Assembly (NCBI GenBank): GCA_025330725.1
Contig: JAIWND010000024.1
Location: 310,001-374,000, forward strand
Length of the DNA stretch: 64,000 nt
Direction: 5' to 3'
Origin: Chlamydoabsidia padenii
Taxonomy: Eukaryota > Mucoromycota > Mucoromycetes > Mucorales > Cunninghamellaceae
A model generated the notes under the pieces. That model was not told the DNA's origin. It saw only the letters and a list, made by a program, of their open reading frames with translations, and did no database searches. This document shows, piece by piece, positions 1 through 64,000 of this stretch (its first letter is position 1; every line of letters begins with the position of its first letter). A program made the position numbers and the translations under genes.

Positions 1-697
1 TTTCGCGCCTGGTAAACAAGTAATGTTACATATCCAAACCATGATGATATTAGTGTTTGATGACTTTACCTTGAGATGTCATATACTATCATCACAAAAA
101 AAAAATGCACATGTTAGTGATAATCCCAATATAATGCAATTTTAGTGTACACCTACCTAATAGAGCCCCAGCTGCACCGCGATAGTAGCTCTGTCAATAC
201 GAGAGTTATAAAACAATCAGTAAGACATCATCGTCACTACAGGTCACCCCCCTTTTTTCATCAGTCTTACCTGTGTGATACTTCGGAAGCTTTCTTGTCC
301 AGCCTAAGCCAGATAATGTTAATATAATCAACACAATTCAACTCTCTTTTTTGACTTACTGTGTCCCATATTTGTAGTTTGATTTGCTTGTCGTCCACTG
401 TTATGAATCGTGTTCCGAATTCGACACTATACAAAGAGTTAAAAACAAAAACGAGTTCGCGTTGGAATCTATTGTGTTATCCCTTTTAATATGCATGTAC
501 TTACCCAATGGTCAATTCACGACCAGCATTGAATCGTTTGTCGGTAAATTGTATCAAGAGGCAAGACTACAGTCACCACAAAAAAACGTAAACAATAAAG
601 TCAGTAATGGGTTCACAAACAATAGGGCCCCCGTTTCATTCAGATCGATTGCATACCTTTCCAACACCTTGTATAAACATAAAAGTGTTAATTCATT

Positions 698-722
698 GAG
701 AGAGAGAGAGAGAGAGAGAGAG
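698..722. repeat. (GA)n microsatellite
   Basis: About 12 uninterrupted GA dinucleotides are visible directly in the sequence. No coding role is apparent. Confidence 0.9.
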
Positions 723-981
723 TATGATGTTAGTGAATATCGATTGATTTCTTTCTCTCTACACGTTACCTGAATCACCAACAATGATATACTATGTTAA
801 AAAGTGGAGTAGATATTGTTAGTTATATCAGTTAGTAGTCTTGGGTTGAGTGTTATCACTTTTTACCTTTATAATATAGTTGTAGCTTGACATGATAAAA
901 AGTGAGAGTATAAAAAGATGTTCAAAAGGGGGTTAGAATGGAAGGAAGAGGTGAAAGAAAGACGGCGTTGAAATTTTAAAT

Positions 982-1009
982 GGCGGTATTTAAATATTGA
1001 AATCCCAGC
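982..1009. promoter_or_regulatory. Recurrent GCGGGATTT-type motif, variant pair
   Basis: GGCGGTATTTAAA is followed within a few bases by GAAATCCCAGC, a partial copy in the opposite orientation. It lies about 180-210 bp upstream of the start at 1191 and resembles the motif found upstream of many genes in this window. A promoter role is inferred from position only. Confidence 0.4.
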
Positions 1010-1190
1010 ACCGAAAGAAGGATAATAATGTTACGTTCCTGCGAACAATGGTGCCACTTTTTTTTGCTGACAACTTGGAACCATGGGTTAATTATTCATG
1101 TATATCTTCACATAAAAGAGCTCCATCTTTTCACTTTTTATATACTGTCTCTTCTTTTGTCTGTGAAACTACTCGGTGGTTGATCTCAGC

Positions 1191-2456
1191 ATGGATTCCG
1201 CTGACTATTTAGCTTATAAACCTTTTTCTCGACGTTTGATTGCAATTCGCGCTGAAGAAATTGAAGAATTTACCATGTATAGTGAAAAGTACTTGACCAT
1301 TGAGAAAGAAGCCCGAGCCATCTTACAAAATATAGATGACAAGTCTGTCATGGAAAAGATGATTGATCGCGCTATCCTTTTCACTTACCTCCACTTCCGC
1401 ACCATCATGTCACTCACCGTGCTGTTCCATAGGGTGGAACATAAAGACTGCATTCGTTCTTTATTTTCGAGTGTACTTTATACACGCTCCAAACATCATC
1501 ATCCCATGTTAATTCTCATCCTTCGACGTTTCATGGTAGGGAGGTTTTCGGAGAAGGGAATTTAAACTGATCTTTTTTTTTTTTGGGTAGAATGAAGGGT
1601 TAATTGATGAAATAGACTGTGCCATGAACTTCAATGGTCGGACTTTGAAAGCACTTGATGTGATTCCATGCATGAATTGGTTTGATCGACGTGTTAAGCA
1701 TTGGCAAAAAACGATTAAGTGCGTAAATTCCGAATCCCGCCATCAACTAACGTCTCGTCAAGTCAAAGGTATAACAGCTTCCAATCATTAAGCCATCAAG
1801 CCAAGAGAATAGCTTATCATTACTTATTGGAATCAAGTATTAAGAGTGATAACATTGTTTATGGCTACCTCATTTTACCTCTCACTCAAGTCCTTCAATA
1901 TAGAGAACTTTTCTGCTCCTATCTGCGTTAGTGGAGATCTCTCTCTTTTTCTTTTTCCCCCTTATTAAGTTCTATTTTAGGTATGGGTATCGAGGCATCT
2001 ACGGTATTCCAAGTGATATTAGACTTTTTGATGAATGAAATCGAGCATAATCACTTGTTTTGGCTTCACTTGATTGAACAGTGTAGTGGTGATTTGGCTT
2101 TACCACCTGCGACGTTCATCAAGTTGGTTGGGACGGCACTCCATCAATTGGTCAATAATCGGTACGCCATCAATACCAATGCCTACAAGAAAAGAAAAAG
2201 TACCGCTATGCATGATGAGAGGCTGCGCAAGAAACGCCAGGTTGGTGGATTGCCTGAGGAGAACGATCAGAAAAAGGAGGATGGCCACGAAGATGATAAT
2301 GAACAAAAGAGTACTGACAACAATATTCAGGAAAATAATAATCAGACTGGCGACAATGAAAATAATGAGATCAACAAGAATAGTGTCATTCCTGAGGAAA
2401 AAGAACCTGATGACAAAAAGGAAACGGGAGAAAAGAAAAAAACCTTCTACAAGTGA
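1191..2456 (+). CDS. Unrecognised protein with acidic/lysine-rich C-terminal tail
   Basis: Four exons join in frame: 1191-1535, 1591-1768, 1813-1926 and 1981-2456, giving about 370 residues. All three introns are GT-AG (second only about 44 nt; first and third acceptors T-rich). The start at 1191 (MDSADYLAYK) is preferred; an in-frame ATG at 1176 is also possible. The first roughly 285 residues look helical and hydrophobic-rich, with no signal peptide and no motif I can name. The last roughly 85 residues are low complexity: a basic stretch (residues RLRKKRQ), then long runs of E, D, N and K, as in nuclear proteins. I do not recognise the family and assign no function. The smooth phase agreement across three introns and the loss of compositional bias inside the exons are the evidence that this is a real gene. 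Confidence 0.65.
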
Positions 2457-2899
2457 TCAATTTAGAAAATGAAGAATACAATGTGCATACTGTTTGAAGA
2501 ATCAAGTACCTTGTGATTTTTTTTTTAAAAACAAAGAAACTACATGATAGAATAAAAAGGTGTTAGAAGACAAAGCATTTGCCATATAAGACCAATCCCA
2601 TTTTGCATTAATCGGCGTTTCAATTGAAATCCCGACAATGGAGTTTACAAGAGATGATACACAAGGATTTTATTTAAAAAAGATACAAGAGACACAAAAA
2701 ATTACAATAAAGATTAAATAAAGATAAATTTTCAATTTATGATAAGTATACTATACTAAAAAGTGATCGAATCAAAAAAGAGGGAATCATGATACAGTAG
2801 TCTAAAAAGTGATGATGTACTCAAGAGTAGAATGAGAGTACCATCCAGTCAGACTTGTTAGGTAGATTGCGAATTCCAGCAGCAACCAATAATTATGAT
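2457..2899. other. Intergenic region
   Basis: No gene is visible. The stretch is the 3' flank of the plus-strand gene ending at 2456 and the 3' side of the helicase pseudogene on the minus strand. It includes a partial copy of the recurrent motif (TGAAATCCCGAC, 2625-2635). Confidence 0.5.
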
Positions 2900-4035
2900 G
2901 TCGATCGCATCCAAGAGCATATGCTATGTTTTAGCACCGTCCTTGGTTATAATGGCACCATGTATGTTTGTGCAATCATCGTTCATGACAATGTTGATTA
3001 CCACACTTTTACGACCAAACCATCCTGAGCACCCGATCCTATGGATGTGGTTTTCTTAATTGTCCAGTGAACCATAGTTAAACACACACACACACATATT
3101 AGTTGATGGATGATTAGTTTTATACATTTACTTGATAACAAATGACACTTGTTGCACATCAATGCCATGTGTCCTACGCGTTATTTTTACCTTTCAACTT
3201 GGCTGAATTCATTTATAATAGCATCACATTCCTTTTGAGACATTCCACCATGCATTGCTGATACAGTAAAATTGACTTCCCGCATCTTTTCCGTTAACCA
3301 GCCCACCTATATATATAAAGATAGAAAGAAGAGTTAATATATCCATATGGCTGACTTTTCTTGGTTTTTCTTCTTCTTACCTTTCGGAGAGTATTACAAA
3401 AGGTGACAGCTTGCGTGATAATCGAAGTGTCACACAAAGTATCGAATTTCCATTCTTCTTGTCCTATCGCCACAAACAACTACTTGATGACTTCCAAAGT
3501 CAATTCATCCCGTTTCACCAAGATTCGAATAGGATCTGTCATAAAGTGTTGGGTCAATGTGAGCGCATAAAGTGGCAGATAATACGACGACTTGAGTAGA
3601 GGATGGAAAGTGGCGATAAATGTCATCAATGTGATCCTTTGGAATCCCACGTTGAGTAGTTCGTCGGCTTTGTCCAAGGTCAGCATTTTTGATGTACTGT
3701 GTGTGCGCATACTTTTTTGTCGAACTGTATCGTAAACATGACCAGGTGTACTCGGTTCCACATGTATACCACTTTCCAGTCGACGGATATCTTTGTTTTG
3801 CTTTTGTTTTTTTACCTTTGCCACGTTAAGATCCAGTTCAATGAGTTTCAATAGAGAGTCGGTCATCATCAGTATGACGTCGCCCATTACCACAGAATCA
3901 GTTGCCAGTTGTGAAGAAGACCAGTGGAGGGAGAATCCAAGTTGCGTGTTCATTCGTTTGTTATTGGGATTTGCACAGTTGAATGGCTTGAGACCAGTAG
4001 GGTTTATAATCCATCGTCAGTGATGCAGGATGGTC
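2900..4035 (-). pseudogene. Decayed eIF4A-III/FAL1-type DEAD-box helicase copy
   Basis: The minus strand contains, in family order, pieces of an eIF4A3/FAL1 helicase. These include a degenerate TPGRVYD block (3700s), LDKADELLNVGF in place of the DEAD-box LDEADEML..GF, FMTDPIRILVKRDELTLE (near 3500), [10 protein letters not shown] and TQAVTFCNT (3400s), [19 protein letters not shown] (3230-3310), GIDVQQVSFVI (3150) and HIHRIGCSGWFGRK (near 3020). An in-frame TAG stands where the family has Q (IKQFF), a TAA sits inside the NREN block, part of LYDTL is missing, and motif I (Walker A) is absent. An intron-like GT...AG still separates the RKV and WLTEK blocks, so this is a decayed gene copy rather than a processed one. 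Helicase function is not expected. It shares the odd LDLNV peptide with the second copy at 11.0 kb. Confidence 0.85.
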
Positions 4036-4134
4036 ATAACATCGCCACGTTAAAAAAGAAGAGTGATCAAGAGGAGCGAGTAAAGTTGAAAAAGAGGGAT
4101 AGGAAAGATTTTGATTTTTGTAGCCACCTGTGAT

Positions 4135-4149
4135 TTTTCAAATCCCGCC
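4135..4149 (-). promoter_or_regulatory. Recurrent promoter motif GGCGGGATTTGAAAA
   Basis: Read on the minus strand this is an exact GGCGGGATTTGAAAA, followed by AATCACA. It sits about 100 bp upstream of the 5' end of the decayed helicase copy, on its sense strand. The same extended version occurs upstream of the secreted-protein gene at 29935-29949. Confidence 0.55.
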
Positions 4150-4203
4150 GACTCCCCGGCATACCATGAAGATCTTGACAAAAACGACCAAATTCACACT
4201 TGT

Positions 4204-5115: not shown

Positions 5116-5119
5116 GGAT

Positions 5120-5710: not shown

Positions 5711-6197
5711 ACTATAGAGGCAGGTGTAATATAACATGTCCCCAAACAATCCAATCTTCAAATCCCACCTTCTCATATTTAATACCCGCTTTGCATGATT
5801 TCCCCCTCTCCTTTCATTACACAGAAAGGATGACCATTTGTAGAATCGTAAACATTACATACAATGACAAAAAGTGTATAAACTCCATCAATAAAAACAT
5901 ACCTTTTTATACTACACTACAAAAAAGAATAAAAAAGAGGACAATAGACAGCCTTTATTGTTTGTAAAAATAAAAATAAAATGTAAAGTATAACGCAGTA
6001 ATGAATAGATGGTGGAAGGACAAATGTAACACATAATGGAATAACAAAGGATATAAAAAAAGGGGGGGGGTAAAGTAATCAAGTAAATGTGCTAAAAGTA
6101 TTGGTGATATACTTGGAGGCCACTTCATTCGCAGTACCAAAGAGATATTTCAACCCATCCGCCAATTTTTCGAGTTTTTGGTTCAAATCCACGTTGC

Positions 6198-7504
6198 CTA
6201 GAATAGTAATAGTATCATCATCAGGACCAAAGAGACAAAGGATATCAGCCACCAGTGCTTTAGGTTGCCCGGAGCAGGAGTCATGAGAGTCGTTGTCCAA
6301 AGTCCAGGATATCTTGTTTGGATGGCGGTTGGAGGCATGGATGTCGGTAGAGCAGAGCCTTTGATTTTACCAAATGCTTCACAAAATACATCAACAGGTT
6401 TGGTTCGTCCGTATACTTCAATGGTGTTGAGAATGATTGCTTGATTGTTGCCAGTGTTGATAAGAATTGCACCAGCTAATACCATTGCTGAAAAAAAGCG
6501 AAATTGAGGAAAGAATTCCCAGTCAGAGTTCAGTAAGTTGCAAACGCGTTCCGAGATTTCGACATAGTTTCGTTGAGAGAGTAGGGTGTTGTATGGCGAC
6601 ATGTTGATGAAGTTTTTCAGATCGCTAACCACTTCAGGAAGACACTGCACACACAACGCACCTTTGTCCGCCATATCAGAGTATAATCGTTTTTTGGGGA
6701 TAATCGGCTTGATGTGCTGATGACTGCTGACAAGTTTGTTGATAATATATGGACTTGTGAGGGCATTATGTTCAATACCTTGACTATCAGTGATTGCAAT
6801 TGGTTGTAAGGCAAGACTTTCCACAATACACATTGACTTGATTTTTTCTTCCTGGGATGCGTGTTCTTGTTGACAGCAGTACAATACAGCTTCATCATAG
6901 TTTCGTGGTGTCTGTGTTGTTGTTGTTGGTGGTGGTGTTGTTGTTGCTGATGATGTTGGTGCTGCTGCTTGTGTTGTTGCTGTTGTTGAGGCTGGTGTTG
7001 GTGTTGACGATTGTGTTGATACCAGTGTCTGTGTTGATGTTGGTGCTGCTGCCTGTGTTGTAGCGATATCGGCGGAACCAATGGTAAATACTACGTCCGG
7101 TAGAAGGATTGGAGACTCCACAATATCATCACTGTAACATACAAACGAAAAAAAAAAAAAGGAAAGGTTAGTCTGGAAAAATAAACAAGAAGGCAGAGAA
7201 GGATTGCTTACCTGTTTTCTATATCATTGGGAATGTGGAGGCCAACATGATCTTTCAGTTCAGAGAGAGAGTTGTAGTGCTCCGTACAAGAAGAACACAG
7301 GAATCGGATTTCGGTTGCGTCCCTTTCGTGAGCAACAAACACGTCAGATCCATGGGCTTTGGGTCGTGCGCCGCGTATGCCTATAGGAAGGGTAAGGTCA
7401 TGGGAGATTCGTAGATGATCACGAACCTTACTTTTGCTGGAGGAAGTTTGTTCACAACCAACGTAAAAGCAACGAAGTACTAAAAACAGTGCCCGACAGG
7501 TCAT
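6198..7504 (-). CDS. C2H2 zinc-finger protein with Thr/Ala/Pro-rich linker
   Basis: Exon 1 (7504-7212) and exon 2 (7131 downward) join in phase 2 through a GT-AG intron. Exon 1 encodes two zinc-finger-like units: CFYVGC followed by HLRISH (C-x4-C...H-x4-H), and FLCSSC followed by HVGLH (C-x2-C...H-x4-H). A low-complexity linker follows, rich in TTQAAAPTS repeats, then about 230 residues of ordered sequence with no domain I can name. The likely role is DNA binding or an unknown function in the nucleus. The frame stops at 6198 with a hydrophobic tail. However, a different frame at 6300-6079 continues with a protein-like sequence (LVADILCLFGPDDD...), so the real C-terminus may lie there, reached by an unseen intron or lost by a frameshift. 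A 70-base A run on the plus strand begins 15 bases before the ATG. Confidence 0.6.
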
Positions 7505-7511
7505 ATATGTA

Positions 7512-7518
<7 letters not shown>

Positions 7519-7588
<70 letters not shown>
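7519..7588. repeat. 70-base A homopolymer
   Basis: An uninterrupted A run on the plus strand (T on the sense strand of the zinc-finger gene) ends 15 bp upstream of that gene's ATG. Its exact length is likely unstable and subject to sequencing error. Confidence 0.9.
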
Positions 7589-7648: not shown

Positions 7649-7662
7649 GACGGGATTTAAAA
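7649..7662 (+). promoter_or_regulatory. Recurrent motif, GACGGGATTTAAAA
   Basis: This is a near-match to the consensus, about 145 bp upstream of the zinc-finger gene but on the opposite strand to it. A second copy (TTGAAATCCCGC) lies at 7906-7917 and a third (TCGGGATTTAAAA) at 8207-8220. Confidence 0.4.
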
Positions 7663-9623
7663 TATCTTTTATTGATTGGTTGAAAAATCGGAATGGATCA
7701 AAGTCAACAACGCAGTAATGAATTACTTTTAAGACTTATCAATTCATAAAGGAGGGGAAAAAAGAAGCTTCGTCATGCGTGCCCCGATTTCACCTTTTTT
7801 CGCAATATTAAAATAAATAAATAAATAGTTAACACAATTTGAATCGGTTTATAAAAGCGAAAAGAGGGGTTGTTGTTATCGGGTTTTAAACATTTGTTAT
7901 GCATATTGAAATCCCGCTTTCCTTGGTCATTCTTCATCCATCTCCTCATCAAAAGGGGAAAAAAGAATAAACATTAAGTTGACATTAATTGGATAGCTTA
8001 GGAATTTGAAAAAATGTCTTTTGGCATGAGCACATCCATTTTTTTTCTCAGAAACAACCGTTTGACTTGATTTAGATTTCTATAGACGCAGAATTCAAAT
8101 CCATTGACACTAACAGGTTTCTTTTTCTCAAATTACATTAATCAATACCGAGGAAAGTGGTAATAACTGAAAGTTTACAATGAGAGAAAATGACGCAGGG
8201 AATACTGTCGGGATTTAAAAGTATATATTTTTTGATCCCCCTTTTTTTTTTCCTACGCCTTCTCTTTTCTTCTTCTTTTTGATACATTTGCATCGCTAAC
8301 ACCAACATCAAAAACAACAACATAGCAGTTTACAGGTAACTCAAAAGGTATGTTGTTTAAAGTTGTAGTTTGTTATAATATCGACGCGATAGCTAACCTT
8401 ACTTTTTTAGTATGTGATAGAGAAAAGGCGAAACCCCTATTCAAGCGACATGGGTAACACGATGACTGGTAAAATTTGGGTTCTGTTTACCACTCACCAT
8501 TAACAAAACTACTTCTTCTCTCAAGCAACAATAGTAGGGGTTCGTCAAACGTGGTGGGTACCCTTCAACGTCCCATACACTTCTCCGCATACACTCAACA
8601 ACGGGTATTAGTATAAAGTACAAGCAAAAAACAACTGGTGATTAACACATTTGTCTCTTTTTACCTGTTGGTTGGCTGTCTTGACAATTAGAAACTATCA
8701 ACAACTTGAACACTTTACACCTATTGACTCATGAATCAAAAGCTCCAAGTTATAAAAAAGGGGTTTTACACGCACAAGGACAATTACAATACAAGATATA
8801 TTTAAACGGGCATCAAACTAGCATACTCCAAGGTAACATGAAAATAAAAGCAATAACAATGTAATAATACTCAACTTGATTATGTATAGAGTGTATGCAG
8901 GGAACATGAAGGCAGTGGGTGGATTCTATTTATGGCAACAAAAAAAAAAAAAAGAGCCTTCTTCTTTTACAATGACGCCGCAAACATCACCAACTACATA
9001 ATCGCATGTATTGATGGAAGGGACTCTTCACCAACAGATAAGTAAACTATACAATTAAAGATATATACTGACCCTTCCCACTTTTTTGTTTTGCCAGGTA
9101 CCTCTGATCGGCGGGCACAACGTTATACTCTTTTGGTCATTATTATACAAGTCATCCTCTACGATCAATAATTCTATGAAAAAGATGAATCTCAGGATTG
9201 CTGATACTATGTCGACTCAACATCAATACTGGGCTTCTCATCGAACTGGTACAACAATGCAGCACTACACCCTTTAACAATAATCATCAATGGTTGCAGT
9301 AACAAAGACAACATTGATTTCCCCAACAAATAAGATCATCCAATCAAGACAGGAACCTCTCGATAGGAAGTTTTCAGCAAATAACTTTCTCTCTTGACGA
9401 TAAACAACATTAGAAGAAACCGTAGCAGGACGTAGGCGACATCGTGTCTTGTTCCAAACCTGGATCTGCTAGCGAATGGGTTGTGCTGGTAAAGCGGGAT
9501 ATCTGGTATGTTGAAGCATTATTGTGGATCTACCTATTCTCAAGCTTGTTGCATTCGCCACCAGTTACGGCGCTCCATTTGATTCTTGGGGATGGATCAT
9601 GATGAACAATGTTTATGGGTACT

Positions 9624-10796: not shown

Positions 10797-10810
10797 GCGG
10801 GATTTGAATA
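10797..10810 (+). promoter_or_regulatory. Recurrent motif GCGGGATTTGAATA
   Basis: An exact GCGGGATTTGAA on the plus strand, at the 3' end of the second helicase pseudogene. No plus-strand gene follows it closely, so its meaning here is unclear. Confidence 0.4.
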
Positions 10811-10889: not shown

Positions 10890-11503
10890 GAAAAATATAG
10901 TTTAGTTTACTACATGCAATAAAAACGGCTATCATTAAGTATAAGGCCACCACCAAGTGGTAATTGCTTGAGAGATTAACAAGATGAGTTCGGATACCAT
11001 TCGTCAAGGAGTACCTATCAAGATATGTTTGCCCATCATTGCATAATTCCCTAAAAAAAACATGCGTTGGTTCCACCAATAAATGCATGACAGTGCACGT
11101 TTAGATCCAGGGCTACGCTGTGGATCTTTGTTGCTAGTTCGTATGTGGGTGAGATACTTATTGCCTGAGTTTCCCGTCCTACTGTATCGATTGGTCGTGA
11201 TAATGGTGAGGTGGTGATGGGTACAATTGCTAGTTTATTAAAGGATACGTCAAGTTAGTAGGTTTCCATCCAATCGTTTTCTTTTTTTCTTTTCACTTAC
11301 CTCGTTTTAGAATGGCTGAGGGTGTTTTAAAGTTGTACGCATAGATACCATAAAGTAAGTCTTCTTTTGAACCAATAACATTAAACATAAGGATGACCTT
11401 AACCTACCATATAAAACAAGTTGTAAGGTTAGTTTTCCACCCATACTTATATACAACAATAACATACGTTACCAGAGGTTTCAACGGCAAGTTTGTTATC
11501 CAT
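10890..11503 (-). pseudogene. Second decayed eIF4A-III/FAL1-type helicase copy
   Basis: The minus strand begins with MDNKLAVETSG, then after an intron VKVILMFNVIGSKEDLLYG and IYAYNFKTPSAILKR, matching the eIF4A3/FAL1 N-terminus ([33 protein letters not shown]). After a second intron come AIVPI, RETQAISISPTYELATKI (family RETQALILSPTRELA) and NVHCHAFIGGTN (QCHACIGGTN). The segment between AIVPI and RETQA, which carries Walker A in active helicases, is missing. Homology fades after RELCNDGQ near 11050, so the DEAD box and the whole second RecA domain are absent. Introns are still present, so it arose from a genomic copy. The recurrent promoter motif lies 57 bp upstream. Confidence 0.85.
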
Positions 11504-11559
11504 TGACAATTTTTGGTGGAAGAGAAGAGTGACCCACCATTGAAGGTGAGGCTTGATAT

Positions 11560-11571
11560 AGTTCAAATCCC
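11560..11571 (-). promoter_or_regulatory. Recurrent motif GCGGGATTTGAA upstream of pseudogene
   Basis: Exact match on the sense strand of the second FAL1-like copy, 57 bp before its ATG. Confidence 0.55.
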
Positions 11572-11580
11572 GCATAAGTT

Positions 11581-12045
11581 TTATTTCGTTTCAAAAATGT
11601 CATGAGAAGGAGTAGAAGTAAGACTAGTAAAACTAACCGGTTGATGGCGGTACCGACTAAAAGGTTGATTAGGATCGAGAGAGACGTAGCCTTGAGTCGA
11701 GTTGGATGAAGTTGATGGAGGTATGCCGGAATTGCTGGGTAACATTATAGAGGAGAAGCCAAAATAGGTGTTTGGCAAAAAAGAGGTATAAGCTGGAGCA
11801 TCCCCCCAACCTTCTTCATCCGAGTTGGCCACTGTCGGTGAACTCATTTGCCAAGAAGGTAATTGTGATATAGACTGTGTTGGTAAGGTGGAAGTCCAAG
11901 TCGCTGTATGATCATTAGACCGCTGTTGTTGAGAAGAGGGCTTGGATAAATGGGTGCTGTTTAGTTGTCTTGATAGAGATTCATCCAACGTTCCAATAGT
12001 AACATGAGATAGTAGTGTTGTTAGTTTGTCTTCGTCGTTCACCAT
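11581..12045 (-). CDS. Unrecognised Ser/Thr/Gln-rich protein
   Basis: A single open frame of 154 codons starts at the ATG at 12045 (MVNDEDKLTTLL) and stops at 11581. The composition is rich in S, T, P, Q and N, with one acidic patch (NSDEEGWGDAP) and no domain I recognise. It probably encodes a disordered regulatory protein, or is one exon of a larger gene. It is divergent from the DYRK kinase gene and shares a promoter region of about 490 bp with it. Function is unknown. Confidence 0.45.
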   Translation of the reverse strand: MVNDEDKLTTLLSHVTIGTLDESLSRQLNSTHLSKPSSQQQRSNDHTATWTSTLPTQSISQLPSWQMSSPTVANSDEEGWGDAPAYTSFLPNTYFGFSSIMLPSNSGIPPSTSSNSTQGYVSLDPNQPFSRYRHQPVSFTSLTSTPSHDIFETK

Positions 12046-19097: not shown

Positions 19098-19109
19098 GCG
19101 GGATTTGAA
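19098..19109 (+). promoter_or_regulatory. Recurrent promoter motif GCGGGATTTGAA
   Basis: Exact match on the sense strand, about 82 bp upstream of the tRNA ligase-domain gene, preceded by GGGG. Confidence 0.6.
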
Positions 19110-19190
19110 TTATGATTTCCGTCAAAACCGTGATCTTTTTTTTTTTTTTTTCTTTTTCCCTTTCCTTTTTACTTATCGACTTTTGTTCAT

Positions 19191-20423
19191 ATGATGGTGG
19201 AAATTGAACCTTTTAACTTGGATTGGGAAGAACAGGATAATCAGGTGATTCAAGCACTCTACGATCTTGAAAAGGACAAACCCAAGGAACTTCGGCACAA
19301 GATCTTTAGTGTGAATGGAACAGACTGGACCAGCTGGACGATGCGTGACCACCTCTACAAGAAGAACAGATACCCTACCCAAGCTCGTGGTTTATTCACT
19401 AGTCGTCGATCCGATGGAAAATATACCGTTCAAGTACGTGGTTATGACAAATTCTTCAACATTAATGAAACCGAAGCGACTCAGGTAAACAATACAACAT
19501 TAACAACAACTCTTTACTGACTTTACATCTTCCAGTGGCATATATTAAACAAACAAGTACAAGGACCATTCGAAATCACAGCCAAGGAAAATGGGTGTAT
19601 TATTTTTATCACGGCAGACACACCTACTCAATTACTTGCAACGTCGAAACACACAATTCCAGCACCTCGCGATGATAGCACCAGTCATGGCGGCATGGGT
19701 TATCGCTGGCTGATGACCCATCTTGAAGCCTCTCACCAATCACCCACGGATCTGGCGGCATGGCTATACAAACACCGCGTGACTCTAGTGGCCGAACTCT
19801 GCGATGATGAATTTGAAGAACATGTGGTGCCTTACCGGGAAAAACGAGGACTCTACTTACACGGGATCAACTACAACACGACCACATTACGTACGTTACC
19901 TATCAAGACAGTCCATGAAGTGGCACATCACTATGGTTTTCTTACGGTGGAATCGAAACAAGTGGAGGATTGGGCGGAGGTACGACGGTTGGCCGATACC
20001 ATTCAACAAAACAGCACAACAAGTCTACCTTGGTCAGTGGATGAACAAGGGAAAGAATCTGAAGGTCTCGTCATTCGGTGTCGACGACAGGGTGATGATT
20101 TCTTCTTCAAGGTCAAAAATGATATTTATCTGGTTTACCGTGAATACAGGGAAGTCACCAAGGCGTTGCTCAAGGTGAATGGATCGCTGGTGACACTGGC
20201 TTGTTTAGACAAGAAACCAAAGATCAGGTATGAAAAGACGTTGTATTATGTGTATTGGCTCCAGGAACGCATTGTGAATCATCCCGAATGGTTTTATCAT
20301 TACTTGGACAATAAAGGGGTGGTGGCAGTACGACAAGCATTCGAACAGGACTGGAATAATGGATTACTGGTGGGATTAGATAGTGATCATTTAGATAGGC
20401 TAGTAGACAGGGATAGTAAATAA
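19191..20423 (+). CDS. TRL1: Trl1-type tRNA ligase, adenylyltransferase domain only
   Basis: Two exons (19191-19484, 19536-20423) give about 393 residues. The sequence matches the N-terminal ligase domain of fungal tRNA ligase Trl1: VRGYDKFFN upstream and the nucleotidyl-transfer motif AKENGCIIFI, whose lysine falls at about residue 115. Further conserved blocks are ESEGLVIRCRR (motif IV-like) and FFFKVKNDIYLVYREYRE (motif V-like). Trl1 joins tRNA exon halves after splicing and, in yeast, HAC1 mRNA exons. Family enzymes in well-studied fungi are about 800 residues, with kinase and cyclic phosphodiesterase domains after the ligase. Here a stop follows directly after the ligase domain and no healing domains follow before the convergent mL59 gene. 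Either the activities are split between genes, or this is a partial paralogue. An alternative start is the next codon (19194). Confidence 0.85.
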
Positions 20424-20625: not shown

Positions 20626-21075
20626 CTAGAATGGCATGGAGGTCTTTTGCTTGGCGAGTTCCTTCATCTTGTCCTATAAAAAGTATAAAGTAAATTGAGT
20701 AAAAGTCCCTACACATAACATCCCTTGTCTTACCTCTTTCCAGGCTTGAATGGTCTGTGGCATCTTTTCGAGGTTCTTTTGAATGTTGCTTTGTCGTTCA
20801 GCCCGCATACGTTCGTGTTTTTCCAATTTGTTGGGTTTATAACGTAAAGGTTTGGCGGCAGTAACAGGTGGTAAGCCAATAGTGCTGGGGTCGACATTGT
20901 ATTGGATACAAGCTTTTCGTAAATCGTTTTGAACTCGTCGTGATACTTGAGCGGGGCGCCAGAATCCTTTTTGTTTGCTGTTGTTAAAGACAAAGGTGGG
21001 AGTCACATCAGCCTCTGTTAATGGTTTAGCTAATCGGTTTATAAACTTTTGTGAGAAGAAGCGTTGAGTCGACAT
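20626..21075 (-). CDS. MRPL25: Mitochondrial large ribosomal subunit protein mL59-like
   Basis: Exon 1 (21075-20734) and exon 2 (20673-20626) join in phase 0 to give 129 residues. The N-terminus (MSTQRFFSQKFINRLAKPL) is basic and lacks acidic residues, as expected for mitochondrial proteins. The core has PTFVFNNSKQKGFWRPAQVS followed by a charged helix, then LPP, then K/R-rich helices ending in MKELAKQKTSMPF. This is the pattern of mL59/MRPL25, with a WRPP-type turn before a helix. The protein is predicted to sit in the mitoribosome large subunit. It is convergent with the tRNA ligase gene, and a copy of the recurrent motif lies 88 bp upstream. The family assignment is moderately sure. Confidence 0.65.
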
Positions 21076-21161: not shown

Positions 21162-21174
21162 TTTTAAATCCCGC
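21162..21174 (-). promoter_or_regulatory. Recurrent promoter motif GCGGGATTTAAAA
   Basis: Exact core on the sense strand, about 88 bp upstream of the mL59 start. Confidence 0.6.
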
Positions 21175-21487: not shown

Positions 21488-22452
21488 TCAAAACAACTTT
21501 GTCCAAATGATCAACACAATCAAAGCAACCAAGACGAGAATGATGACACCAATGATGATCTTGTTCGTGGCCATACTACATGATGATAAGAATAAAAATA
21601 AGAGTTAGGTGTGTAAGAAGATAATCAAAGGTGTAAATATAATCTTACCGACGAGCCATTACTTTAAGTGTTCTAGAAGATTTGTCAATATAAGAATCGG
21701 CTTCTCCCAAAGTATCCCTAGTGCGTAACAAAGTTTCCCGTTGACCTTTTAAAGTACTAAGGATGTTGACCCCGATACTTTCAGTTTCCAGAGCCAAACG
21801 ATGACTGCCTTCTAAACGACGACTGGATTCCCCTAAGCGATCTGTCCCATTCAATAAACGTTGTCGTTGATCTATTGTCGAAGCGTCAAGGTCAGGTTCC
21901 GCTGTATCCATGGTTAAAAGGAGATCTTCTCGATCTTGGTTTACCAAAGGAGATAATGACGCACGTCGCTGGTAAAAAAATAAAAGAAGGTCAGAGTGCT
22001 TGCATCATTGTTTATCAATGTATATTCAACTTACCAAATCCCGCTTCATCTTTTCACTTTCAGACTTTAATAATCTGAGTCTAGCTTGTAGTCTTACACG
22101 AGACGGCGTAGGGGCGTTCATGAGTTCCCTTTCCATTTGCACAATCTATTATGAAGAACAATGAGATAATAGTAATAATAAAATGAGTTAAACACCACAC
22201 CCCTTTTTGACCAATACCTACAATGTCGTTGGCTTCACCGAGTTCTTGTTCACCGTTTTGAATGGCAGTCTTTCTTTTATCTAATCATCATACCAGGTTA
22301 GTTACAATGTATCGAGTCAGTCATTAATAGGGCTTACCTGTGGTGGGTGCAGACGAGACTGACTCTACTGTTTTAGCAAACCCATCCCTTAAAGAGTAAA
22401 AGTCCTGTTCATAACCACCAAAGTTATCAATGTCGTTACTGTTAGTTGCCAT
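21488..22452 (-). CDS. VTI1: v-SNARE Vti1
   Basis: Five exons (22452-22338, 22280-22222, 22145-22035, 21968-21649, 21575-21488) give 230 residues. The N-terminal half is an alpha-helical V-SNARE domain. The SNARE motif follows as a heptad region (RQRLLNGTDRLGESSRRLEG through SYIDKSSRTLKVMARR), with the glutamine of a Q-SNARE near its centre (TLKGQRETL). The C-terminus is a single membrane anchor (IIIGVIILVLVALIVLIIW) with a very short lumenal tail, typical of a tail-anchored SNARE. Vti1 acts in Golgi-endosome-vacuole fusion. The start MATNSNDIDNF is the only in-frame ATG of the first exon. The match to the recurrent motif at the end of exon 3 (KRDL) is coding and likely coincidental. Confidence 0.92.
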
Positions 22453-26332: not shown

Positions 26333-26348
26333 GGGCGGGATTTCAAAT
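26333..26348 (+). promoter_or_regulatory. Recurrent motif GGGCGGGATTTCAAAT in divergent promoter
   Basis: Located between the FYVE gene (start 26067, minus) and DCAF7 (start 26564, plus), about 215-265 bp from each. Its strand fits DCAF7. A T run (26374-26392) follows. Confidence 0.55.
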
Positions 26349-28769: not shown

Positions 28770-28896
28770 TTTATTTAAATCATAGTCAATAAGGGGGGGG
28801 AGAAGAAGACAATCTATTGACTAGGTGCCGGGATTTAAATCATAGTCAATAAGGGGGGAGAAGAGGGATCTATTGACTAGGTAGCGGGATTTAAAG
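28770..28896. repeat. Tandem repeat carrying the recurrent motif, ending in a stop codon
   Basis: Two units of about 55-60 bp (ATTTAAATCATAGTCAATAA, G run, AGAAGA..., TCTATTGACTAGGTGCCGGG) lie head to tail at 28774-28882. Each ends in the motif (28827-28840 and 28883-28896). The last motif copy, AGCGGGATTTAAAG, overlaps the TAA stop codon of the secreted-protein gene on the opposite strand. Confidence 0.8.
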
Positions 28897-29472: not shown

Positions 29473-29518
<46 letters not shown>

Positions 29519-29934: not shown

Positions 29935-29949
29935 TTTTCAAATCCCGCC
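29935..29949 (-). promoter_or_regulatory. Recurrent promoter motif GGCGGGATTTGAAAA
   Basis: Exact match on the sense strand of the secreted-protein gene, about 125 bp upstream of its start, extended by AAATCACAG as at 4135-4149. Confidence 0.6.
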
Positions 29950-31778: not shown

Positions 31779-32394
31779 ACTCTCGGGACTAGAATGACCT
31801 TGCATGAATTTGTTCAACCATGTATCTATGCACTATTCATGCAAGGTAGATGGACATCAATCTCCATCAAGTGAAACCGTATATGATATTACTTCATTTC
31901 TTTCGGAGTGGATGTCAAAAGGCGGTATTTGAAAAATATCAAATGCGGGTCCCCCTTTTTCAAACTGTACCTTTTTACAAAGAGACTTTTTTTTCAGTCA
32001 TATCATAGATAAGACAGTACCGTTGACACATGAATGATACGTTGATTTTAAACAGATGTTTCTTTTTTCATTTTTTTTTCTTTGTTCTTTTTCATATATC
32101 AAAAAACTATATCATACCAAATGAACATGAGGTCATTCATTTAATGAGTTTTTCTTTAAACTTGTTCATTTTAGTGCCCCATAGGCTTCAAAATGACCTG
32201 GCGGGAAAAGCGGGGTTTGAAATAATGACATAACTAGAAAAGATCACCTCGTGATGAGTTCTCACCACCCATTTATTCTAACAGTTTCAAACTCCATTCA
32301 ATTTCTTTCCTCTTTCTCTCTTTTCTCTCTTTTTTTTTTTTTAAAAAAAAAATAATCTTACAACTACTTTTTTTACATTTACTCTTTCCTTAAC
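31741..32394. other. Intergenic region upstream of the FHA-RING gene
   Basis: Contains the A run 31745-31775, a small inverted repeat CCTTGCATGAAT/ATTCATGCAAGG (31799-31847), a motif variant GGCGGTATTTGAAAAATAT (31921-31938) and a T/A-rich stretch just before the start at 32395. No gene is seen. Confidence 0.5.
32209..32223 (+). promoter_or_regulatory. Recurrent motif variant AGCGGGGTTTGAAAT
   Basis: On the sense strand about 170-185 bp upstream of the FHA-RING gene and directly preceded by GGCGGGAAA, itself a half-match. Confidence 0.5.
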
Positions 32395-38641: not shown

Positions 38642-38657
38642 GGCGGGATTTGAAAAT
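38642..38657 (+). promoter_or_regulatory. Recurrent motif GGCGGGATTTGAAAAT
   Basis: Full consensus match without an evident gene downstream. A second copy, ACGGGATTTGAAAATG, lies at 38798-38813 on the same strand, and a third (GGCGGGATTTGAAAAT) at 40251-40266. Confidence 0.5.
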
Positions 38658-40077: not shown

Positions 40078-40465
40078 ATGACAGATAAAAGTCACCACAA
40101 GCTTGGACAGACTGACACAAGGGCCATGATGCTTGGCTTTTGCGGTAAAGTATGTTGGGGATAGGCCATAGTGTCCATATCATCACTTTAATCATTAGCA
40201 TCGGTTGACAATTGAGCGAGTAGTGCTCTTCACAAATCTGACCAAGGACGGGCGGGATTTGAAAATGATTTCTGCTTCTGTCTGTAAAAAAACTCTTCGT
40301 CCCTTTTTCTTGCAAATGGCAGGTAAAACTCATTACAAGCTTGGAAGGACTGACACAAGGGTCTTGGTGCTTGACTTTTGCGGTAAAGTATGTTGGAAAT
40401 AGGCCATAGTGTCCACACGGCCACTTTAATCATTAGCATCTGTTGACAAGGGAGCGAGTAGTGCT
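40078..40465. repeat. Tandem duplication, about 238-bp period
   Basis: The segment at 40078-40226 recurs at about 40317-40465: ACAAGCTTGGA..GACTGACACAAGGG, CTTTTGCGGTAAAGTATGTT, ATAGGCCATAGTGTCCA and CACTTTAATCATTAGCATC in the same order. A copy of the recurrent motif lies between the two units. Confidence 0.85.
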
Positions 40466-48718: not shown

Positions 48719-48734
48719 AGCGGGATTTGAAAAT
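48719..48734 (+). promoter_or_regulatory. Recurrent promoter motif AGCGGGATTTGAAAAT
   Basis: Full-length match on the sense strand, about 142 bp upstream of the hexosaminidase start. Confidence 0.6.
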
Positions 48735-48875
48735 CGGACTTGTATAAAAATGACTCCCCCATTTCTTCCTTTTTACTCCTCTTTTTCTTTTTTCTTCAAG
48801 TTTTACTTTATTCTACCTCCTGTTTTACCACTTGTCTCTTCTTCTTTTTTTTATTTTTTTTATACACTCTTCAAC

Positions 48876-50696
48876 ATGAAGATCTCATTTGCCATTGCAT
48901 CGGTGGCATTGCTGTTTTGTACCATTAATGCCGAAACCTTTCTCTTCCCTGCTCCTCAACAAGTGGAATGGACAGGTCATGCTGCAACATTAGCTCAAGA
49001 TTTTACATTCACTGGTGCTCAAAATGACTTTGTTCGGGATGCCTCTTCTCGATACCTGCGACTGATTCATAAAGAACAATGGACACCGGTGCAAGTACCT
49101 TATGAAAAACCAGCCCCACTTAAAAAAGCCGACCCACTGCGTCACTTGGCGATCAAGGTGATGGATAACAAGGTGAAACTGGACATGGATGTGGACGAAT
49201 CTTATCAACTGGATGTACCTTCTACTGGCGGCTCGGCGATCCTGACGGCACCGACCTGGGTGGGTGCTCTCCGCGGTCTTGAAACCTTTTCTCAACTGGT
49301 GATTGGGAAAAAAGTGCATACGGTGACGATCAAGGACAGTCCCTCTTACAACCATCGTGGTATCTCGTTGGACACGGCTCGCAACTTTTACCCTGTGGCT
49401 GATCTGTTGCGTACCATTGATGCGTTGGCTTACAACAAGATGAATGTCCTGCATTGGCACGCTACTGACTCTCAATCCTGGCCTCTGGTATTCACATCAC
49501 ATCCTGAACTATCGGACAAGGGTGCCTATTCCAAGAAGGAAACCTATTCTCCTCAAGACGTGCAAAAGGTGATCAAGTATGGTCAATCTCGTGGTGTCCG
49601 GGTGTATGTGGAAATCGATATGCCTGCGCATACCGCTGTGATCGGTGAATCCCATCCCGACGTGATGACTTGCTTGAACCAATTCTGGGGTCCTTTGGCC
49701 GCCGAACCTCCTGCAGGTCAACTGAATCCCATCAGCGACAAGGCGCTCACATTGGTACAAGATTTAATCAAGGAAGCAACATCTACATTCCCCGATACGC
49801 TTTATCATACCGGTGGTGATGAAATCAATGGTAAATGCTGGGAACAAGACAAGGCGGTGGGTGATTATCTCAAGGCACACCAATTGACAACGGATGAACT
49901 CTGGGTACAATGGACCAACAAGATTTTTGATTATATCAAACAGCACACCAAGAAACGACCTGTCATTTGGGAAGATCCTGTGAATGCTTCTGGTGGCAAG
50001 TTTGACAAGAATGTGGTGGTGCAGATTTGGAATACTCCTGCTGCCAATTATACTTCTAAAGGTTATGATGTGATTGTGTCTAGTAATGATTATTTTTACT
50101 TGGATTGTGGCAATGGAGGTATGTATGGGATGGAATGGTGGGTTATCGAATCATTAGAGATTATTCACATTCTTTTTTTTTTTTTTTTTAATGTATAGGG
50201 TGGGTAGGTGATGATGAACGATATATCAGTCCCACTCAACAACAGACTCCGGATGATACATTCAACTACGGTGGTGTCGGTGGATCATGGTGTGCTCCTT
50301 ACAAGGTAAATAGAGTGAAGTGATCAAACATTTGGAAACTAACATGTTGATTGATAGACTTGGCAGCGTATTTATACCTTTGATCCTACCTATGGCATTT
50401 CCAAAGACCATCCTGGTAAAGTCTTGGGTGTTGAATTGGCATTATGGTCTGAACAATCCGGTCCTACTGTGTTGGATGGCAAACTCTGGCCTCGTTCTGC
50501 TGCTGGTGCTGAAATATTTTGGTCTGGACCTTATGACAAGAACAACAAGCGTCGTACGTTGGCTGAAGTCCAACCTCGTTTCAATGACTGGGTCTATCGT
50601 CTTCAAGAACGTGGCATTGCCGCCACACCTATACAGCCTAAATACTGTGCGAAACACCCACATGCATGTGATCTGAATGATCCCTCTAAAAAGTAG
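48876..50696 (+). CDS. Secreted beta-N-acetylhexosaminidase (GH20)
   Basis: Three exons (48876-50118, 50199-50305, 50358-50696) give about 562 residues. The signal peptide is MKISFAIASVALLFCTINA. The catalytic domain is complete: HRGISLDTARNF, MNVLHWHATDSQSWPL, VEIDMPAHT, the acid/base pair in HTGGDEINGKCW (D315-E316) and WEDP. GH20 enzymes release terminal GlcNAc from chitin fragments, supporting chitin recycling and wall remodelling. The usual C-terminal blocks are present (GVELALWSEQ, AAGAEIFWSG). Length and signal peptide are normal for the family. Codon use in exon 1 looks more biased (many CTG, GTC, GCC, AAG) than in the neighbours, as for a highly expressed gene. The start is the ATG after a long pyrimidine leader. 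Confidence 0.96.
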
Positions 50697-55088: not shown

Positions 55089-55550
55089 AATGTTTAGATA
55101 TTTTGAATCAGCGGGCTGACAGAGCCACTCTTGGGATAAAGTTTGCCTAACCAACGAAAAATTAAATCCTTGTTTTGAGCCCCAAGGCGGGATTTGATCA
55201 TTGAGAAATAAAGTAGACCCGTATCACTCCTGCCAATGCAAACACTCTCTTTGTCCTTCCGCTGCAAAGCAATACATTCGAGCTATATATAAAGTGAATT
55301 TGAATCACTAGTATTGTTACTATTAGAGAAAACTATAAAGGGAATATCTTTTGCATTAAATAGTGTGGGCGTTGAAGAGATAGACCAACTCACGTCTTGA
55401 CTTTGTGATCAAAACGGTGCAGATCAGTTTCACCTCCTTTATTAATATCGTCTCATATTAGTAGGCATAAAAAGGAAAACAATAATGAATATGACAACTT
55501 TCTTTGATTCCTCTTCCTGGTACTACCTTTGGACTTATAGGATCCTTCGA
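54381..55550. other. Region without a recognised gene
   Basis: Contains degraded frames upstream of the Fanzor-like remnant, a 41-base A run (55047-55087), a GA tract (55015-55027), and the recurrent motif at 55186-55197. No gene is supported. Confidence 0.45.
55186..55197 (+). promoter_or_regulatory. Recurrent motif GGCGGGATTTGA
   Basis: Exact core on the plus strand, about 390 bp before the degraded gene at 55.6-56.4 kb. Confidence 0.45.
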
Positions 55551-55579
55551 CATGCTGGAAACAGACAACGAAAAAAATG

Positions 55580-56330
55580 CATTGATATAATGAACGAAGC
55601 CAACTCAAGCGAAAAAGATACTGATTTGACCACAGGCAGTTTCCTATTCCGCCTGTAAGTAATTGAATCTAATGAAAAATAGATGGTATTGTAAGACTCA
55701 TCAGGTTACCAAATCTTCTCCTTGTCCTTGAAAAGTAATAAAAGTTTTTGCAAAGATACTTTTATACATCATTATCTTGATGACACCATTGACGGTTATT
55801 TTTTCCCAGGAACCGCTATTACAGCAGAAATGGTAAATTCATGCACAATTCAAATCCCGAAAAGTGTTTTTTGGTTTACAGGGCAAATGGATGGTTGACG
55901 ACATCCAAGGAAGAAAAGTCAACAAAGGCACTGAAGTCTGATTGGGTTGCTGTCGTTAAATCATGGATCAACAGGTTTGATCTCGCGGTTTCCTCCCCAT
56001 TGTCTGACTTTGTCAAACTTGGTGTGGAAACGCAGAAAATGTTGATGGCTCTTAGGAGAACGATCGACGAACCCTATGCTCTCGGGATCTTGGTGGAAGG
56101 TAAGTTGTCCATCTCTTGTGTGGCAAGGTCGAAATTAACCTATACCATTGGTTTTCGCATAGGCTTTGAAGTTAAAACCTACTTCATGGATCTCCTCGGT
56201 GAAGGCGTCCTCACCATCCTCACCATCCTCATCCTTATCCTCATCCTCATCAACTTGTCTTCATCTTTATCTTCATTATTTTTTTTTGTGCTTTTAATCC
56301 ACTACCAACATCAACATCTCCAACAAGAAC

Positions 56331-56382
<52 letters not shown>

Positions 56383-56413
56383 TAGCAGAAGTAACAACAT
56401 CAATTGGGGTTAA
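55580..56413 (+). pseudogene. Degraded gene of an unnamed, probably lineage-specific family
   Basis: Exon-like frames include MNEANSSEKDTDLTTGSFLF (ending at a GTAAGT near 55660) and ANGWLTTSKEEKSTKALKSD, then WINRFDLAV, DFVKLGVETQKMLMALRRTI, and LVEG joined by a clean GT-AG intron (56100-56162) to FEVKTYFMDLLGEGV. The last part has the look of a repeated Mucoromycota protein family in which a VxG..V.TY.MDL block recurs; I cannot name it. After GEGV the frame runs into ILTILIL and (SN)n low complexity and stops at 56413, where a normal domain would continue. I read this as a truncated or decaying copy. Between the two parts a motif copy (ATTCAAATCCCG, 55849-55860) occurs in what would be an exon or intron. 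Confidence 0.4.
56331..56382. repeat. (CAACAG)n microsatellite
   Basis: About eight copies of a 6-bp unit, translated as alternating Ser-Asn in the degraded gene. Confidence 0.85.
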
Positions 56414-56535: not shown

Positions 56536-56755
56536 AGGCATATTTATTTTAAAATCCCGCCTAATTCAAAATTTAAACTCACCTGCATGGTTGTCGGAGT
56601 GTTGAAATGCAAGATGCATGATTATGCCCCTTACGACGATGAAATCAGATTAGAAAAAGGAAGATAAAAACAATTCTTTTATTCATTTGGATAAACATAA
56701 AGGAGGTGAATAAACTAGTACTTAAAGAGAGTGTGCAGGGGCGAGACAGCTATGG

Positions 56756-62935: not shown

Positions 62936-63030
62936 TTGTTGTAAGAAAAGGTGAAGGAGAAAAAGAGAAAGGAGCAAATAAAAATAAAAAAAAGATCGGG
63001 GATCTACTTAGTAATCAGAAATCACAAAAA

Positions 63031-63048
63031 GCGGGATCGGAATTTCAA
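63031..63048 (+). promoter_or_regulatory. Recurrent motif variant GCGGGATCGGAATTTCAA
   Basis: About 96-113 bp upstream of the IPP1 start, on the strand opposite to the gene. The two half-motifs GCGGGAT and TTTCAA are both kept. Confidence 0.4.
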
Positions 63049-63093
63049 CTCACATGTGAATTCAGTTGCATGTATAATTATCGAGGCATGGTT

Positions 63094-63266
63094 TCCCGAT
63101 CCGCATGAATTTTGATACTACATAACAAACCAATAAAACAAACTGGATCACAATAGTGATTAAAAGATCTTTATTGATTAGAGTAAGTATAACAGTATGT
63201 AAAAGATGGTTTCAGTAATGTAGGGGATAGTGAGGATAATATCCACAAGAGAGGAGGTAAATAATT
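63094..63266. repeat. Dispersed repeat, copy 2 (with 23941-24125)
   Basis: Begins TCCCGATCCGCATGAATTTT and keeps ATAGTGATTAAAAGATCTTT, ATTAGAGTAAGTATAACAGT and AAAAGATGGTTTCAGTAA in the same order as at 23.94-24.13 kb. It lies downstream of the minus-strand CPA2 gene's stop, as copy 1 lies downstream of the FYVE gene's stop. Confidence 0.8.
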
Positions 63267-63272
63267 AGTTAG

Positions 63273-63325
63273 AATTCACTGGTATATCATTTTCCGATAC
63301 TGACAATTTTGTACATGTTTGTGGT
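63273..63325 (-). pseudogene. Degenerate duplicate of IPP1 exon 1
   Basis: Read on the minus strand, MYKIVSIGK, a stop, then YTSE corresponds to the IPP1 first exon ([15 protein letters not shown]) at 62935-62876. Most bases are conserved, but a stop interrupts the frame. The copy is about 380 bp upstream of the true exon, separated from it by the dispersed repeat. Confidence 0.7.
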
Positions 63326-63454
63326 AAGAGGTGACATATAAATAATCTGAATTTCAGATCACAGGCACAAGTAGTAAATAAAGCAAAGACATTTTTATTC
63401 AAGATATATAAATATAAAAGACAATGATAAAACTACAGATACATAACCTATTAT

Positions 63455-64000
63455 CTAGATTTTGGTAGAGACGAAATCGCTCCATCGTTTGACTTCACTG
63501 GGAAGTTCACCAGATTGTTGATTAGCCGATTCAGCGGTCTTCTTCACATAAGCATCAGCAAAGAGACGGGCCACCTTGGAATCATTCAACAACGGGATAC
63601 CAAAATCAACAGCAGCACGGCGGCAGACATAACCTTGATCGTATTGGTCGGGAGCGCGAATCTTGGCGAGATGCATGACAAAGTCGATATCATGATCCTT
63701 GAATAGAGCATTCAATTCACGCTTGTTGTCCGCCTTTTCAGCCACAGGGAGTACCACCGAGGGGATGTTGGCCTTTTCTTGGAGTACCTTTTTGTCTTGT
63801 TCGGTAGGGACATAAATAGGGTGACCCATCTTCTTGTGGAAGACATCGGCCACATGCAAGTAATCATCCAGATCCGTCACATTGTCACCACCGAGTAAGA
63901 CACCAGCACCAGGAGCAGGGATTCTAAAGTTTTGAGTGGATTGAATCGCCGCCCAGTAGGCTTCGTACTTGTCTTTACCAAAGCATGCCACTTCACCAGT
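63455..64000 (-). CDS. CPA2: Carbamoyl-phosphate synthase large chain, C-terminal part
   Basis: The frame from the window edge to 63455 encodes the last about 181 residues of a carbamoyl-phosphate synthetase large subunit. TGEVACFGKDKYEAYWAA is the end of the second ATP-grasp half. An MGS-like regulatory domain follows (GHPIYVPTEQDKKVLQEK, VVLPVAEK, RRAAVDFGIPLLNDSKVARLF). The absence of a downstream aspartate transcarbamylase part and the immediate stop (KRWSDFVSTKI) favour the arginine-specific enzyme (CPA2) over the pyrimidine multienzyme. It makes carbamoyl phosphate from glutamine-derived ammonia, bicarbonate and ATP. The 5' part lies outside the window. Confidence 0.88.
   Translation of the reverse strand, partial: TGEVACFGKDKYEAYWAAIQSTQNFRIPAPGAGVLLGGDNVTDLDDYLHVADVFHKKMGHPIYVPTEQDKKVLQEKANIPSVVLPVAEKADNKRELNALFKDHDIDFVMHLAKIRAPDQYDQGYVCRRAAVDFGIPLLNDSKVARLFADAYVKKTAESANQQSGELPSEVKRWSDFVSTKI

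Follow-up and report, generated by a model that had tools for sequence, protein, structure and literature searches.

A bipartite CGG-N2-TTTRAA motif of Chlamydoabsidia padenii is probably a proximal promoter site of a putative general regulatory factor

Introduction

What does a nine-base word do when it stands ahead of many unrelated genes along one stretch of fungal DNA? The question is raised by a 64-kb window of Chlamydoabsidia padenii (Mucorales, Cunninghamellaceae; contig C17, positions 310001-374000), in which a first-pass annotation had noticed a dispersed bipartite 9-mer, GCGGGATTT or AAATCCCGC, and had taken it for a core or proximal promoter element used by many genes. To our knowledge, the promoter architecture of early-diverging fungi has hardly been described. 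Among the papers listed by literature searches, by the letters of the motif and by promoter motifs of Mucorales and early-diverging fungi, none describes the element, which is weak evidence of novelty. We consider the motif to be probably the landing site of a widely used (putative) gene-control protein.

The analysed sample of 324 kb consists of this window, 200 kb of contig C1 and 60 kb of contig C2, and genome-wide counts cover the whole 34.2-Mb assembly of this one genome, with the pattern read backwards and counted in the same assembly as a control (termed "reversed"). Genes were predicted by a hidden Markov model (HMM) made for this study and trained on the sample, which gave 119 models with consistent GT-AG splice profiles and a median intron of 70 bp.

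An abundant word in two halves

In the window, the exact 9-mer occurs 15 times over both strands, where 100 dinucleotide shuffles give 0.33 copies (sd 0.59, maximum 2), and 18 further copies carry one mismatch, which brings the number to 33 vs. 9.97 expected. The first-pass annotation had counted well: its approximately 15 copies all exist as exact 9-mers within 2 bp of where it had put them, its expectation of well under one copy and its assumed GC content of about 38% (38.7% measured) were sound, and near-matches are, as it had said, at least as frequent as exact ones. According to our own gene models 13 of the 15 are intergenic, one is intronic and one is coding, in line with its remark that the copies are almost all non-coding. 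The continuation it had read as (T)GAAAAT or (T)TAAAA survives in a looser form, with AA at the second and third base after the 9-mer in 13 copies, GAA in 8 and exactly GAAAAT in only 3 of 15; the extended form GGCGGGATTTGAAAA(A)ATCACAG is indeed repeated at 4140 and 29940. On the genome average 64 kb would hold 6.7 exact copies, and the window with its 15 is therefore motif-rich (Poisson p 0.004).

Across the assembly, GCGGGATTT is found 3,595 times vs. 64 for the reversed pattern, the 2-nt-spacer form CGGNNTTTRAA 11,456 vs. 326 times and the 15-mer GCGGGATTTGAAAAT 396 times vs. 0. When 9-mers with at least 25 copies in the sample are ranked, GCGGGATTT is the most enriched of all barring triplet-type repeats (40 vs. 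1.57 expected). Counts of single-base variants show that CGG and TTT are strict and the two bases between them (mostly GA) loose, with [G/A]AA and then A/T-rich bases following; the refined motif reads R[G/T]CGG-(GA)-TTT[G/A]AA[A/T][A/T] and is found in either orientation, the base ahead of CGGG being G in 40 and T in 34 of 88 copies. Intergenic CGG-N2-TTTRAA has 98 copies vs. 2.1 expected (sd 1.7; third-order model, 10 simulations), and spacings of 0, 1, 3, 4, 5, 6, 7 and 8 nt have 1, 3, 11, 3, 6, 7, 3 and 2 copies. Since the 2-nt spacing dominates in this manner, the description as "bipartite" was right and the spacer is near-strict. The 3-nt form reaches 1,627 copies genome-wide (389 reversed); among the 100 matches listed, a good part is CGGGATTTTAAA, which also contains the 8-mer core CGGGATTT. 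An apparent tandem motif (TCGGGATTTGAATATCGGG...) was seen near C1:1066516, in a convergent interval of 369 bp.

Promoter-proximal position and the pyrimidine-rich leader

For positional work we joined the 2-nt-spacer form and [GT]CGGGATTT into one "union" motif, shaped on the same 324 kb without use of position. It has 143 copies in the sample, 120 intergenic, 17 intronic and 6 coding, a depletion from coding sequence, which makes up 55% of the sample. With repeats masked and each base assigned to the nearer gene end, the motif is absent from the 50 bp upstream of start codons and then peaks: successive 50-bp bins hold 0, 2.65, 2.48, 2.31, 1.29, 0.58, 0.66 and 1.91 copies per kb (0.74 beyond 400 bp), vs. 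0.19, 0.20, 0.69, 1.41, 0.67, 0.75, 2.09 and 0.47 after stop codons (1.09 beyond 400 bp). The zone 50-250 bp from starts has 41 copies and the zone 0-200 bp from stops 10, a ratio of 4.05 (p 9e-6), both zones having been fixed after the profile was viewed. Among 104 predicted genes of at least 150 aa, 46 carry the motif within 350 bp of the start codon, counted with upstream stretches untrimmed at neighbouring genes and repeats unmasked.

Promoters in the sample carry a pyrimidine-rich leader, and we called its tract, blind to the motif, as the highest-scoring pyrimidine segment within 300 bp ahead of each start. In 500-bp upstream regions, 33 of 61 copies lie 20-80 bp before the tract start, vs. 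14.1 +/- 3.0 (maximum 26 in 5,000) when motif offsets are shuffled among promoters; this range was fixed post hoc from the pyrimidine profile. Upstream of the motif and within it the pyrimidine content is about 0.4-0.6; it then rises, whichever way the motif faces, and reaches about 0.8 at some 50-60 bp downstream. At distance-matched positions in motif-less promoters it stays at 0.59-0.67 over the next 150 bp without a rise. Since the rise follows the motif in either orientation, the element is probably a DNA signal and not an RNA signal. Outside the sample, in seven of eight 15-mer loci pyrimidines make up at least 85% of some 20-bp stretch that lies 30-90 bp off on one side, as is the case for 18.7% of random intergenic positions; these loci (L001-L008) are the first eight of the 396 15-mer places, all on C1, and the 85% cut-off was chosen post hoc. 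The miss is L004; L003 attains 0.85 in its 70-90 bp stretch alone, and L005 resembles by eye the repeat family described below.

In the 300 bp ahead of start codons the motif is sense 24 times and antisense 19 times, so the sense bias first noticed does not generalise from the window; there, 8 of the 15 exact copies precede their nearest predicted start by 89-409 bp, and all 8 are sense to that gene. The annotation had been right to place sense copies before the tRNA ligase, mL59 and hexosaminidase genes; the FHA-RING gene that it also listed has only the degenerate GCGGGGTTT at 32210. Core elements of the TATA or initiator type likewise stand near the initiation zone of many genes, but the motif differs from them by its free strand, by its spread over 20-80 bp and by the lack of co-enriched TATA-like words (18 at 42 copies vs. 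about 23 expected from controls). A strand-specific core promoter element was rejected on the strand count and on this spread in place of a fixed distance. What stands of the original "core or proximal promoter element" is its proximal part; the motif has no fixed strand, and copies exist in non-promoter intergenic DNA and in introns. We regard it as probable that the motif is the proximal promoter site of one abundant putative general regulatory factor, which would open a pyrimidine-rich initiation zone.

Named genes with the motif encode an RNA ligase, an Rpb2-type polymerase subunit, a HEAT/importin-like protein, NOL10, OMP decarboxylase, a V-SNARE, a gamma-tubulin complex protein, GH16 and GH20 proteins and an ABC transporter; the mL59 gene carries it as well, its model being too short for the 104-gene set. 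Pfam was run on 45 of 46 motif genes (21 matched, about 3 regulators) and on 32 of 42 motif-less genes (19 matched, about 9 regulators). That motif genes hold fewer regulators is only suggestive (Fisher p 0.04), the classes having been assigned post hoc, mostly from one exon per gene, with a few matches below the Pfam cut-off (DJ-1, C2H2, Rua1).

Copies in the window

The exact copies are collected in Table 1 together with degenerate copies and pyrimidine tracts; five of the intergenic ones have no predicted start within 1.5 kb.

Table 1. Motif copies and associated pyrimidine tracts in the 64-kb window (window coordinates).
Position	Strand	Feature	Relation to predicted genes
4052..4108	-	Pyrimidine tract, putative initiation zone of gene 3480-3953	Tract start -155, length 57
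4140..4148	-	Exact copy; pyrimidine tract begins 35 bp downstream	191 bp upstream of gene 3480-3953(-), sense
7650..7658	+	Degenerate copy ACGGGATTT	About 152 bp upstream of gene 6079-7504(-), antisense, 43 bp before its pyrimidine tract
7909..7917	-	Exact copy	409 bp upstream of gene 6079-7504(-), sense
10797..10805	+	Exact copy, intergenic	No predicted start within 1.5 kb
11565..11573	-	Exact copy	In predicted intron 1 (11552-11637) of gene 11051-12045(-)
19098..19106	+	Exact copy; 31 bp before pyrimidine tract	89 bp upstream of RNA-ligase (tRNA ligase-like) gene 19191-20423(+), sense
19134..19188	+	Pyrimidine tract of RNA-ligase gene	Tract start -57, length 55
21166..21174	-	Exact copy	95 bp upstream of mL59 gene 20626-21075(-), sense
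22036..22044	-	Exact copy	Predicted coding sequence of V-SNARE_C gene 21488-22452(-)
26335..26343	+	Exact copy, divergent intergenic	225 bp upstream of 26564-28350(+), sense; 271 bp upstream of 24168-26067(-), antisense
28884..28892	+	Exact copy; stretch recurs within sample	3' ends of two convergent genes; no predicted start within 1.5 kb
29940..29948	-	Exact copy; 57 bp before pyrimidine tract	131 bp upstream of gene 28891-29813(-), sense
32210..32218	+	Degenerate copy GCGGGGTTT	About 179 bp upstream of gene 32395-34957(+), 76 bp before its pyrimidine tract
38643..38651	+	Exact copy GGCGGGATTTGAAAAT, intergenic	No predicted gene model; no predicted start within 1.5 kb
40252..40260	+	Exact copy GGCGGGATTTGAAAAT between two 161-bp direct repeat units of dispersed repeat family	No predicted start within 1.5 kb
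48720..48728	+	Exact copy GCGGGATTTGAAAAT; 29 bp before pyrimidine tract	152 bp upstream of GH20 hexosaminidase gene 48876-50696(+), sense
48754..48872	+	Pyrimidine tract of hexosaminidase gene	Tract start -122, length 119
55187..55195	+	Exact copy; 53 bp before short pyrimidine tract	300 bp upstream of gene 55491-56413(+), sense
56552..56560	-	Exact copy, 342-bp convergent intergenic interval	No predicted start within 1.5 kb

The region upstream of gene 6079-7504 (7650-7660 and 7880-7917) holds three copies in both orientations, at about -152, -381 and -408. Scans of the window for tRNA genes and Rfam families gave no match.

Copies away from promoters

The motif is more than a promoter element, as orphan intergenic, intronic and repeat copies exist, and several results weigh against a purely promoter role. 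Orphans, here the non-repeat intergenic copies outside the 350 bp ahead of any predicted start, number 56 vs. 48 promoter copies; intergenic densities are similar (convergent 1.06, divergent 1.03 and tandem 0.91 per kb unmasked; 0.85, 1.16 and 1.09 for a wider motif after masking); and the logo is much alike in promoter, orphan and intronic copies. All three would suit a chromosome-wide element of a non-promoter kind, serving architecture, replication initiation, roadblock termination or insulation, whose promoter peak merely reflects open DNA. We think such an element unlikely, given that the density beside stops is about fourfold below that beside starts and that the link to the pyrimidine tract exceeds its distance-matched controls. 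An enrichment of promoters over other intergenic DNA is seen only in the peak 50-250 bp from starts and in the tract link, and not in the overall density by intergenic class.

Also to be set against the promoter reading, the profiles are noisy (1.91 per kb at 350-400 bp from starts; 1.41 at 150-200 and 2.09 at 300-350 bp from stops), and introns of at most 110 bp hold 6 CGG-N2-TTTRAA copies in 34 kb. In a blind k-mer screen of promoters vs. 3' tails, which overlap neighbouring promoters, pyrimidine words dominated and the motif stayed outside the top 18 words of 6, 7 and 8 bases; the core 8-mer is found in 33 of 110 upstream regions vs. 28 of 111 tails (500 bp each). The tract serves as a proxy for the initiation zone and is not stronger in promoters with the motif in range (median score 14.6 vs. 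17.1). The in-house HMM models also miss genes, and only 25% of the 56 orphan copies are flanked by a tract of at least 80%, vs. 7% of random positions, so that some of them probably mark unannotated promoters; such promoters would account for only a minority of the orphans.

Two words of the blind screen were found in promoters and not in 3' tails, namely AGGAGTTG/CAACTCCT (10 vs. 0) and ATGAGGT (12 vs. 0), and both occur in coding sequence as well.

Could the motif be what is left of a dispersed mobile element that spread it through non-coding DNA? About a tenth of the copies are repeat-borne, 14 of 143 lying inside and 129 outside repeats detectable within the 324 kb, a measure by which low-copy genomic repeats would be missed; for the density profiles and the orphan and logo comparisons the repeat intervals were widened by hand, and 16 instead of 14 copies were masked. 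Most repeat-borne copies belong to one dispersed family with 238-bp units. In the window (40059-41059) this family comprises a pair of 161-bp direct repeats spaced 238 bp apart; behind them come about 500 bp that resemble C1:1157262-1157783, with TATAAAAG and a pyrimidine-rich stretch. Relatives stand at several places on C1 and C2, and the family may represent the promoter portion of a mobile element or of a gene family. Among 100 motif matches listed (all on C1), several pairs also lie 236-244 bp apart. We nevertheless hold a mobile-element remnant to be very improbable. Only the 14 copies lie in detectable repeats, the tolerance for base changes follows the pattern of a binding site (loose spacer, strict CGG and TTT), and the copies are placed non-randomly with respect to start codon and tract. 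A transposon origin of all copies was rejected when 132 similar flank pairs, counted at first, reduced to these 14 copies in a few repeats; the motif is dispersed, as first described, and not confined to one transposon family.

A cell-cycle site?

The GCGGGA of the motif resembles an E2F half site. The motif might thus be an E2F/DP-type site joined to a cell-cycle genes homology region (CHR), in the manner of the pair of cell cycle-dependent element and CHR (CDE/CHR) that recruits DREAM in animals, and be read by a fungal E2F/DP for cell-cycle control. As in the CDE/CHR and hybrid E2F/LIN-54 sites of human, fly and worm, a GC-rich half containing CGG is followed by TTTRAA on the same strand, near the promoter and after a short fixed spacer. 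The half TTT[G/A]AA fits the CHR consensus TTYRAA given in an excerpt of PMC4974476, but among the variants of CGGGATTTGAA, C stands at the Y position in 0 copies and one base earlier in 5. Worm DREAM peaks with a hybrid E2F/LIN-54 motif are described in the consulted parts of PMC3093354 and PMC5683655. Six E2F_TDP domains pass the cut-off in the genome (contigs C7, C56, C19, C67, C1 and C8), all with the R[RK]xYD helix, three E2F-like and three DP-like by eye. This expanded E2F/DP set, with no pRb domain detected, agrees with the statement in an excerpt of PMC4862756 that zygomycetes kept E2F and lost pRb.

We give the cell-cycle reading little credence, however. The T found before CGGG almost as often as G (34 vs. 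40) breaks the SGCG core of E2F, and the canonical TTTSSCGC is not enriched (2 matches in the promoter and tail sets, 92 kb). The spacer is 2 nt (98 intergenic copies) and not the 4 nt of CDE-CHR (3 copies) as modelled in the excerpt of PMC4974476. No match at E <=10 was obtained in this genome for TCR/LIN54 (PF03638), DIRP/LIN9 (PF06584) or RB_A (PF01858), in a search where no control genome matched and introns may split domains. No copy lies within 800 bp of the sole MCM gene of the window, and the Pfam names of motif genes are mixed and not those of a cell-cycle set. In copy number, 11,456 motifs compare with 1,418 worm DREAM peaks (PMC5683655, seen in excerpt). Consensus sites of SCB (Swi4/6 cell-cycle box) and E2F, tried as candidate promoter words, were not enriched in promoters vs. 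tails; the MCB (MluI cell-cycle box) word ACGCGT has 4 promoter and 2 tail copies, too few to judge. Because of the spacer, the T before CGG, the unenriched E2F sites and the general nature of the motif genes that have names, we file the motif with general regulatory factor sites and not with DREAM elements.

That said, there is an outside chance that an ancestral CDE/CHR-like site, after the loss of pRb and the MuvB core, was kept and became, with >10,000 copies in the 34-Mb genome, a widespread promoter-opening signal whose reader would be E2F/DP or a successor protein. If true, one of the most familiar cell-cycle switches would have been turned into a general housekeeping promoter code.

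Proposed mechanism and significance

If the motif is a general regulatory factor site, as we prefer, one abundant sequence-specific nuclear protein would read the CGG half and the AT-rich half at their fixed spacing. The motif would then be a proximal, orientation-independent element at many promoters (44% of sampled genes, some thousands genome-wide by extrapolation), with the protein bound 20-80 bp upstream of the pyrimidine-rich tract, which may mark the zone of initiation and the leader. Most likely the bound protein would keep this stretch of chromatin open, like Reb1 or Abf1, and initiation would follow just downstream.

In yeast, the Reb1 site is CCGGGTAA and that of Cbf1 is CACGTG. The sites of the yeast general regulatory factors Reb1, Abf1, Cbf1 and Rsc3 share with the motif their abundance, their presence at many unrelated promoters, their place upstream of the initiation zone and their free orientation. 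They differ from it in that its sequence matches none known to us, and in that many of its copies stand in convergent DNA and some in introns. Such sites turn over between fungal lineages, according to an excerpt of PMC2897762. A site of adenine methylation was also considered and rejected; the Mucorales motifs VATB and AAAACA, given in the consulted part of PMC11258239, do not match, and an excerpt of PMC12695648 held nothing useful on this point.

An abundant and sharply defined site is a direct handle, by which a single pull-down could name the binding protein, and removal of that protein would show what share of a Mucorales genome depends on it. The element bears on how general regulatory factors have been replaced across fungi, as well as on the fate of E2F-type sites after the loss of pRb.

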